From Emticicia aquatica (GTDB taxonomy: Bacteria > Bacteroidota > Bacteroidia > Cytophagales > Spirosomataceae), in NCBI RefSeq assembly GCF_923079645.1, contig NZ_CAKLPY010000001.1, positions 930,001-994,000 on the forward strand: 64,000 bases of DNA. Direction: 5' to 3'. The first letter of the stretch is position 1. The number at the start of each line of letters is the position of its first letter. Shown here in pieces: positions 34,608-42,885 of this stretch. A model generated the notes under the pieces. The model searched no databases. It saw only the letters and a program-made list of their open reading frames with translations, and was not told the origin of the DNA. Both the position numbers and the translations under genes were made by a program.

Positions 34608-34625
34608 TCTCTTCCCCCAAAGAGA
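34608..34625 (-). promoter_or_regulatory. UGGGGG-hexaloop hairpin at the nirD start
   Basis: On the minus strand TCTCTT-TGGGGG-AAGAGA forms a perfect 6-bp stem with a six-base loop. It lies in the nirB-nirD spacer and ends only 4 bases before the nirD ATG, covering the ribosome-binding region. The loop is identical to those in the nrt leader near 41.1-41.3 kb. Confidence 0.6.
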
Positions 34626-37204: not shown

Positions 37205-37260
37205 CCTACGTTTGCAGTATTGATTAGGCCAGTACGTTTCCCCCATTCTGGTCTAAAAAA
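37205..37260 (-). ncRNA. nirB leader element with blocks shared with the nrt leader
   Basis: On the minus strand the 5' untranslated region contains, in order, ATGGGGG (37246-37240), CTAA (37227-37224) and ACGTAGG (37211-37205). The same three blocks occur in the same order in the leader of the nrt operon (41263-41303); the first two are 12 bases apart in both. The G-run sits in the loop of a hairpin with arms TAGACCAG and CTGGCCTA (one A-C mismatch). An RNA role is inferred because the element lies downstream of the predicted transcription start. Confidence 0.55.
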
Positions 37261-41020: not shown

Positions 41021-41052
41021 TTTTGAGTATAAAATATTATTTTTTACATTTG
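41021..41052 (+). promoter_or_regulatory. Promoter of the porin/nrt/nas operon
   Basis: TTTTG (41021-41025), exactly 19 bases, then TACATTTG (41045-41052), a perfect TAnnTTTG. The octamer and following AAT are the same as at the nirB promoter. Transcription would start near 41059, giving an unusually long leader of about 270 bases. Confidence 0.72.
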
Positions 41053-41058
41053 AATAAG

Positions 41059-41331
41059 CAAAGAAATTAAAGAAATAATAAGTACAAATAACCAAAGAAA
41101 ATTTCGATAGTGGGGGCTATCGGAAAATTAATTAAAAGTCTCAATTATTGTATTTTTTCTAAAAACTATAAAGTATGATAAGAAAATAACATTAAAAAGC
41201 TTAAAAATCGGAGATAGTCGGAGTGGGGGCTTCGCCTTGAACCAAACAAAAACCGACTTGACATGGGGGTGTCAAAGTCGGCTAACGAATCGCAGAACGT
41301 AGGTATTTATTCACAATTCAATTCAAAACAA
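41059..41331 (+). ncRNA. Structured nrt leader RNA with three UGGGGG-hexaloop hairpins
   Basis: Between promoter and start codon three hairpins each display the same six-base loop TGGGGG. Hairpin 1, 41102-41125: nine pairs including one G-U, loop 41111-41116. Hairpin 2, 41219-41234: five pairs including one G-U, loop 41224-41229. Hairpin 3, 41253-41281: eleven pairs with one bulged A (41276), loop 41264-41269. After hairpin 3 come CTAA (41282-41285) and ACGTAGG (41297-41303), which are also in the nirB leader. No T run follows hairpin 3, so it is not itself a terminator. Identity of the ligand or binding protein is unknown. Confidence 0.6.
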
Positions 41332-42885
41332 ATGAAAAAAAATCTATTTAGCAAGTTTGTACTTGCAATTTTCTTCACAATCGCTTTTTTTCAAGCATCA
41401 TTTTCACAATTTTCATTACTAGGACAAGTCAGAACTCGCACAGAAGTACGTGATGGTTTGGCTAATCTCGCACCACTCGGAACGAAGTATTCGGCTTTTA
41501 CTTCACAGCGTACACGACTTACATTTGGCTACAAGTGGGATAGAGTAACATTTGGTATGTCGGTTCAAGATGTAAGAGTTTGGGGGCAAGATGCTTCATC
41601 AATTTCAAATGCTGATGGTGGAAAATTTGGAGTACATGAAGCTTGGGCAGAAATTGTTTTGGCCAATTCGGCTGATACAACGGTAAAATTTAAGCCGATT
41701 CAAAATCTTTCATTAAAAATTGGTCGTCAAGAGCTTGTTTATGACGATGTTCGTTTACTCGGAAACCTTGATTGGTTGCAACAAGGCCGCCGCTTTGATG
41801 CCGCAATTTTCAAGGCACAACATTTAGGTTGGGCATTAGATTTTGGCGGTGGTTTCAATCAAAATGCTGATGCTTTTGGTACAAACGGAACATACTATGT
41901 TGGTGGAAATGCTCCAGTTTCAGCACTTTCAAATAAAAACGTTACACTGGCGATTCCAACTGGATTTTTGCCAACAGCTACGAAAGGAGGAACGCCTGTT
42001 TTAGCAAATGCCGCTAGCACAAATGGCCAAAACCAAATGTTTAAGTCTTTCCAAATGGCTTATTTGAGTCATAAATTTAAACAGACTAAGTTGGCTGTTT
42101 TATTTTTCAAAGACGATTTCTCAAAGTTTCGTATAGATAGTATCGGTAATGCATCTGCTGGCTACGTATATGGAAGACGTTACGACCAAACGGGAGTTAA
42201 TTCTCGCTTAACTTATGGAGCAATGCTTACTGGGCAATTTGGAAATGCGTCGTCTAAATTAGGTAAAATTCAGTGGCAAGCATTCGGATATGCACAATCT
42301 GGCAAAGATCGTGATGGTTTGAGCATTAGCAAAGCGTATCATTATGGAGCTAATTTTATGGTTCAAAAAGGTTTACTCAGTTTTGGCCCAGGTTACGAAG
42401 TATTATCTGGTAATGATGGATTTAATTTAAAAACAGGTGAAACCCATCGTTTTGACCCACTTTATGGCACTCCGCACAAACATTGGGGTTATATGGACTA
42501 TTTTTATGTGGGGACTGGTTCGCCAGCAGGAGGCTTGCAAGATGCTTTCTTCAAAGTAAAACACGCGGCAAGTCGCCTGACAACTACATTTGATGTACAC
42601 TATTTTGCATTGGCAGCTGCTACGCCAAATAAAACAAAAGATGCACCCGCAAATGCTAAAATATCACCAAAATTAGGCATGGAATACGATTTAGTTTTGA
42701 ATTATTCCCTAAATAAATTTACTGCTGTTGAGTTAGGGTATTCTGTAATGAAAGGCAATAATAGCCTCGAATACGTCAAACAAAATTCGATGGATAAAAC
42801 ACGCAAAACTGGCCAATGGTGCTATTTAATGCTCAATATTCGTCCAGACTTTTTCTATGCAAAACCTGTGGCAATCAAGCAATAA
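41332..42885 (+). CDS. Outer membrane beta-barrel of the alginate export (porin) family
   Basis: I use the ATG at 41332, which begins a clean signal peptide (KFVLAIFFTIAFFQASFSQ), rather than an in-frame ATG at 41263 that lies inside a hairpin; 517 residues. The mature protein has alternating beta strands rich in aromatic residues (RTRLTFGYKWDRVTFGMSVQ, LSLKIGRQELVYDD) ending in an aromatic-rich strand, as in alginate-export/OprD-like barrels. First gene of the nitrate uptake operon, so it probably lets nitrate or nitrite pass the outer membrane; the name alginate reflects the fold only. Confidence 0.82.
   Translation: MKKNLFSKFVLAIFFTIAFFQASFSQFSLLGQVRTRTEVRDGLANLAPLGTKYSAFTSQRTRLTFGYKWDRVTFGMSVQDVRVWGQDASSISNADGGKFGVHEAWAEIVLANSADTTVKFKPIQNLSLKIGRQELVYDDVRLLGNLDWLQQGRRFDAAIFKAQHLGWALDFGGGFNQNADAFGTNGTYYVGGNAPVSALSNKNVTLAIPTGFLPTATKGGTPVLANAASTNGQNQMFKSFQMAYLSHKFKQTKLAVLFFKDDFSKFRIDSIGNASAGYVYGRRYDQTGVNSRLTYGAMLTGQFGNASSKLGKIQWQAFGYAQSGKDRDGLSISKAYHYGANFMVQKGLLSFGPGYEVLSGNDGFNLKTGETHRFDPLYGTPHKHWGYMDYFYVGTGSPAGGLQDAFFKVKHAASRLTTTFDVHYFALAAATPNKTKDAPANAKISPKLGMEYDLVLNYSLNKFTAVELGYSVMKGNNSLEYVKQNSMDKTRKTGQWCYLMLNIRPDFFYAKPVAIKQ

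Follow-up and report, generated by a model that had tools for sequence, protein, structure and literature searches.

Six-base-loop hairpins in the nitrate assimilation leaders of Emticicia and related Bacteroidota

The nitrate assimilation locus and its leader

The window, the whole stretch of 64,000 nucleotides from Emticicia aquatica that was analysed, carries on its plus strand an operon in which the porin gene at 41332 is followed by nrtA, nrtB, nrtC, nas and a nasD-like gene, and on its minus strand a nirB-nirD pair together with a two-component system composed of a PilJ-HisKA_3 kinase and a receiver-GerE regulator (Table 1). NrtA of the window is 90% identical to that of Emticicia aquatilis, the closest named relative. 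The two-component system, present in Emticicia and Spirosoma-type clusters and absent from some of the fetched loci, resembles a pair acting through DNA binding and may contribute control at the promoter. The consensus promoter claimed for the operon in a preliminary description of this DNA, made from the letters alone, can be upheld as a putative one, and the ATG at 41332 is more likely to be the porin start than an in-frame ATG at 41263, which lies within hairpin 3.

Table 1. Positions of genes, hairpins and candidate elements of the nitrate assimilation locus in the window
Feature	Position	Strand	Remarks
Promoter-like TTTG - 19 nt - TACATTTG	41022..41052	+	TTTG 41022-41025 and TACATTTG 41045-41052, by eye; presumed fit to the Bacteroidota promoter consensus
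Hairpin 1	41102..41125	+	9-bp stem; loop TGGGGG 41111-41116; present in E. aquatilis and G002
Candidate mini-ORF ATG ATA AGA AAA TAA	41175..41189	+	Start 58 nt past the hairpin 1 loop
Hairpin 2	41219..41234	+	5-bp stem; loop TGGGGG 41224-41229
Hairpin 3	41253..41281	+	11 bp, one 3' bulge; loop TGGGGG 41264-41269
Outer-membrane porin, Alginate_exp-type	41332..42885	+	First gene of the operon
Fourth hairpin, tctctt-TGGGGG-aagaga	34608..34625	-	nirB-nirD gap; loop 10 nt and hairpin end ~4 nt before the nirD-like ATG
TGGGGG in nirB leader, candidate	37240..37245	-	51 nt upstream of the nirB ATG; only loose pairing of the flanks

The leader of the porin-nrt-nas operon contains three hairpins with the loop UGGGGG, all of them at the positions where they had been described. 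The term hexaloop here denotes the six bases within the outer pair, because RNAfold shows GGGG closed by a U-G pair. Folded alone, hairpin 1 (-11.3 kcal/mol, z -5.5) and hairpin 3 (-16.3 kcal/mol, z -4.6; 62 nt from loop to porin ATG) are strong, whereas hairpin 2, whose short stem includes one G-U pair and whose loop lies 40 nt upstream of the hairpin 3 loop, is weak, its stretch folding no better than its own shuffles (z +0.44). The whole leader folds with a z of -2.3, and three hexaloop hairpins sharing one loop arose in 0/5000 dinucleotide shuffles of 41059-41330, two such hairpins in 53/5000 (stems of at least 4 bp). The stems had been expected to change in compensation around a constant loop, and between Emticicia species they do so in hairpins 1 and 3: with pairs read by eye, hairpin 1 differs by C-G to U-A, and hairpin 3, between the window and G002, by U-A to C-G and C-G to U-A, the loop being kept. 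Pairs are broken at two places of hairpin 3 in E. aquatilis and at one of hairpin 1 in G002, likewise by eye. Neither the window nor 20 related loci matched an Rfam family at the gathering cut-off, and a lax search with the leader returned two chance-level matches.

Loop variants and distribution among relatives

Loci of relatives were gathered through NrtA, which was found at E<=1e-30 in 42 of 148 related genomes; 37 loci were taken and 80 more were added via a contig search. Upstream of the porin, hairpins with the loop TGGGGG and unrelated stems occur in the other Emticicia (L031, G002), as well as in many genera of the family. UGGGGG is, however, only one variant of a lineage-specific loop. 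In Runella-, Xanthocytophaga- and Bernardetiaceae-type loci the loop is TGGCGG or TGGCAG and is often present twice, and the same arrangement recurs in porin leaders of a further family and of the order, mostly with TGGCAG. In other Cytophagales and in Sphingobacteriales/Chitinophagales-type leaders a hairpin occupies the same place, usually with the loop N-[U/G]-G-[G/C]-N-N, further porin-leader loops being GUGGAA, UUGGCG and GUCGCA, the last of these in Mucilaginibacter-type leaders. The porin leaders L061, L063 and L093 present CUGCCA, the exact reverse complement of the UGGCAG found at the same place in other genera. In a set of 23 representative hexaloops the second base is G or U throughout, while 19 have G as the third base and 22 have G or C as the fourth. 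After removal of identical leaders and of four incomplete ones (L046, L060, L087, L205), the best hairpin was scored in 103 leaders. An N[TG]G[GC]NN hexaloop was found in 47 of them, 41 of these 47 lying at -68 to -42; a filter for position and A-run was passed by 54 of the 103, reduced to 53 when L049 was dropped by eye.

The element had been described as one of this leader, where it does occur, but it is not confined there: several nitrate and nitrite genes are marked, with hairpin-bearing gaps between nirB and nirD in the window and at narK, porin, nrtA and nas in relatives. In the 15 Flavobacterium loci with nrtABC such a hairpin was absent up to a distance of 450 nt from the porin, although one of them has the loop letters without a stem. 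Several Flavobacterium leaders contain AT-rich palindromes such as TACGTAAGTA, and in the leaders L088-L109 palindromes like TACGTAAGTATAAGTACTTACGTA lie close to where the porin begins and may be the site bound by a NarL-like regulator encoded nearby.

Association of the loop with stems

Hairpins chosen for pairing cannot prove that they pair, and pair counts of the selected hairpins were left unused as circular. The association was counted without selection for stems, at distinct places in 120 sources after every ATG-started ORF had been masked over its full length, a flanking stem of at least 4 bp being scored. Within the nitrate loci of relatives, 36 of 50 non-coding sense occurrences of TGGGGG sit in such a stem, as do 59 of 124 occurrences of TGG[GC][AG]G; the same loop on the antisense strand does so at 7 of 88 places, and other GC-rich hexamers (a 30% sample) at 104 of 4818. 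A laxer earlier version, which still counted the cobA-start sites masked in the stricter one, gave 42/56 for TGGGGG, 68/142 for TGG[GC][AG]G, 6/83 for the antisense strand and 52/2457 for other hexamers. The cobA-start sites form a separate observation: ACTCGTGGGGGCGGGT, a hairpin-like TGGGGG in the coding start of cobA (e.g. L031:2976-2991, L239:5933-5948), is identical in 13 of the 120 sources, across AT-rich and GC-rich genera, and absent from the cobA of the window.

In a tally of all non-coding hexaloops on stems of at least 5 bp, TGGGGG came first with 18 loci, followed by the AT-rich ATAAAT and TAAGTA with 17 each. Swapping arms among 27 representatives lowered the score from 23.9 to 8.4, a contrast inflated by the picking of the natives as best folds. 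RNAalifold kept only five pairs of the lower P1, two of them covarying, from an alignment in which MAFFT had misplaced the variable loops. Since the stems vary while the loop stays, both within the leader and between genera, the loop appears to be what is read, and the argument for a loop-recognised RNA first made for the three hairpins of this leader extends to the relatives. These associations also bear on the suggestion, a very improbable one in our estimation, that the hairpins serve to terminate antisense transcripts or merely to stabilise the mRNA, without a loop reader. In its favour are the A-run before most proximal hairpins, a T-run on the opposite strand, and a terminator-like site predicted for the minus strand at hairpin 1, but such roles need no loop kept over unrelated stems and the association is found on the sense strand and nearly absent from the antisense strand.

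Genes marked by the hairpins

A covariance model (R1) was built from 31 of 33 TGGGGG hairpins, L031 and L048 (cobA start) being left out. It gave 31 matches at E<=5 in ten genomes, with at most 150 candidates scored per genome. Within this scope, the matches at E<=1 outside the nitrate cluster numbered three and all lay in long ORFs, and because of this the gene set is, as far as R1 can tell, that of nitrate and nitrite assimilation. Five matches were weaker, four in ORFs and one non-coding (G000). A second model (R2, TGGC[AG]G) found most leaders of 12 genomes and was less clean than R1; in G803 three other places outscored the genome's own leader, and among 16 inspected places of 38 two non-coding matches lay outside the cluster (G140 C54 and G803 C348).

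Two hairpins elsewhere may be due to chance. One, in the window's own genome (L151, G000 C3:297439), is a TGGGGG hairpin ~16 nt before a trpF-like ATG with an E of 2.4; the other (L236, G140 C54:86438) is a TGGCGG hairpin in non-coding DNA, a short distance upstream of a gene that we take to be sufD-like.

Distance to start codons

The distance from the end of the proximal loop to the ATG is 44-70 nt in porin leaders, the values clustering at 54-62 nt around a mode of 58, and a second hairpin, where present, often lies ~40 nt further upstream. The spacing is 65 and 30 nt for narK, ~40 nt for nrtA and 10 nt for nirD, and over narK, nrtA, nas and the upstream tandem hairpins it varies from 10 to several hundred nt. 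All 13 Spirosoma-type genomes (loci L034, L037, L048, L181-L188, L190, L192, L195, L196) have a five-codon mini-ORF that starts 57-61 nt after the loop and is always closed by a stop, its codons varying but mostly reading ATG AAA AAA/AAT/AAG N N stop. The porin start follows 120-214 nt further downstream, across a C/T-rich, A-poor stretch (C 27-37%, G 16-25%), an arrangement for which leader-peptide or Rho attenuation is possible. As the 57-61 nt are kept to the mini-ORF and not to the porin, it is a start codon, and not the porin gene, to which the hairpin is tied. The candidate mini-ORF of the window, likened by analogy to those of the Spirosoma-type genomes, is a weak one, because its letters and spacing are not conserved in the other two Emticicia.

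An additional stem ('P2') in the interval from hairpin to start codon looked convincing by eye in several leaders but was rejected as a general feature when RNAfold gave a mean z of 0.08 over 48 unique intervals, and no structure hiding the start codon was supported in these intervals. A TYGC..AAC box, noticed post hoc, lies between hairpin and ATG in 18 of the 48 unique intervals against 2.2 expected from shuffles.

Candidate readers and modes of action

The observed structure, its loop constraint, gene set and spacing describe an RNA element that is real, widespread and undescribed, a search of the PMC open set having found no prior report. Several known types of RNA-binding protein were considered as its reader. 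The preliminary description had noted that no ANTAR protein is encoded here, and ANTAR (PF03861) was likewise over cut-off in none of 58 relatives and none of 21 further genomes, the majority of which carry the hairpin, with weak sub-threshold matches in two and three genomes, respectively; 0 of 14 control genomes matched, so that these counts carry no measure of sensitivity. With A at position 1 in 1 of the 23 hexaloops, and no overlapping sense terminator in the window leader, regulation by an ANTAR protein is not supported. CsrA (PF02599) was over cut-off in 0 of 22 genomes, against three of the seven controls that gave a match, E. coli among the seven, and with loops that do not follow the hexaloop ANGGAN a CsrA-bound leader is not supported either. 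An RRM_1 protein occurs in 12 of 14 genomes and was set aside as not common to all carriers, being missing from G014 and G112. Seven carriers (G000, G004, G002, G015, G014, G140, G112) have a single NusG gene and therefore no LoaP/UpxY-type paralogue, which removes a specialised NusG from the candidates there. By eye, no obvious RNA-binding gene lay near the cluster among the ORFs of eight loci and the further clusters viewed.

The reading that we favour, as somewhat more likely than not, is that a loop-reading factor, probably a protein, controls the nitrate mRNAs, most likely at translation initiation. Short hairpins would mark nitrate and nitrite assimilation mRNAs in many Bacteroidota, each presenting on a variable stem a six-base loop (UGGGGG in Emticicia, generally N-[U/G]-G-[G/C]-N-N) to a trans-acting factor, most likely an RNA-binding protein, which may bind neighbouring hairpins together. 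With the proximal hairpin ~58 nt upstream of a start codon, and this distance being kept, a bound factor would most likely govern translation initiation at that codon; it is chiefly this conserved distance that leads us to place the action there. In this way the nitrogen status of the cell, presumably through nitrate or ammonium, would set the fate of the operon mRNA, by activation or by repression.

An unlikely alternative is that the loops are read on the nascent RNA and alter transcription elongation, by antitermination or relief from Rho, rather than translation. The location of the hairpins, in leaders and also between genes of long operons, would suit such a mode, and the C/T-rich, A-poor 120-214 nt after the mini-ORF in the 13 Spirosoma-type genomes could load Rho; antitermination is used by ANTAR nitrate leaders in other phyla, according to a published account (PMC3369936). 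Against it stand the absence of an intrinsic terminator from the sense strand of the window leader, where the single sense call lies inside the porin gene, the ANTAR and NusG counts given above, and the 58-nt tie to a start codon, which would not be expected of it.

A small RNA pairing with the loops, as a kissing partner or through a seed, and co-evolving with them seems to us improbable. The loop sequence does switch by lineage, GC-rich six-base loops suit kissing, and the CTGCCA loop of L061, L063 and L093 is the reverse complement of the TGGCAG of others; the changes in the loop are, however, position-specific and not free, a pattern more in line with a protein than with an antisense RNA free to co-evolve. 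R1, run on both strands of the ten genomes (at most 150 candidates each), found no CCCCCA-loop hairpin outside genes at E<=1. Paired CCCCCA motifs are scarce in three Emticicia genomes (1, 3 and 1), and 9 of 10 inspected paired-CCCCCA loci lie in long ORFs, which concerns a tandem anti-loop and not a single unstructured seed; a tandem anti-loop small RNA was accordingly not found in the three genomes. The lineage loops GUCGCA and CUGCCA, in turn, mean that a single conserved protein is not an easy explanation for the favoured reading.

A wider proposal, to which we give slightly less than even odds, is that of a new class of cis-regulatory RNA for nitrogen assimilation, in which loop-coded hairpins run across the mRNAs of a pathway, keep a set spacing to start codons and are read by an RNA-binding protein of a type new to bacteria (not ANTAR, CsrA, RRM or NusG-type), with action through a leader ORF of five codons, followed by a C/T-rich tract, in Spirosoma-type genomes and a reader specificity that drifts with the loops by lineage. 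Little post-transcriptional control has been charted in Bacteroidota, and knowledge of nitrate leaders in other groups comes mainly from ANTAR proteins. If the proposal is true, it would offer a compact gene set, a simple six-base code and natural variants in many genera, and pull-down with the loop as bait would be a direct route to a new RNA-binding regulator.

Comparison with known loop-read leaders

Iron-responsive elements, read by IRP/aconitase, present the loop CAGUGN. Compared by sequence alone, they share with the hairpins described here a short upper stem, a single-base bulge, a lower stem, a hexaloop and position-dependent control of translation, but here the loop differs from CAGUGN, the bulge lies in the 3' arm and no link to iron was seen. 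LoaP-type NusG paralogues read a hairpin in the leader of long operons, a likeness opposed by the single NusG gene of the seven carriers. CsrA/RsmE hairpins resemble those described here in their variable stems, in a conserved G-rich hexaloop and in having several sites near start codons; they differ in that G3-G4-A5 occurs in few of the loops here, A1 in one of 23, and no CsrA gene was over cut-off.

The closest likeness in pathway is with the leaders read by NasR/NasT ANTAR proteins, which also precede nitrate assimilation genes, have hexanucleotide loops on variable stems and often come as two hairpins. In the published descriptions, ANTAR-read nitrate leaders carry a hexaloop with A1 and G4, and the second of two hairpins overlaps an intrinsic terminator (PMC3369936, PMC3369931). 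The loops here lack A1 and often G4 (present in 12 of 23), a difference which the preliminary description had pointed out for this leader; no overlapping terminator was seen when the window leader was scanned; and the tandem loops are ~40 nt apart and also occur inside operons. The element works like a loop-read leader, by the logic of ANTAR or CsrA systems, yet it is found with neither protein over cut-off and with the loop of neither. If the loop is read as proposed, these hairpins would have evolved independently to meet the task that ANTAR nitrate leaders perform.
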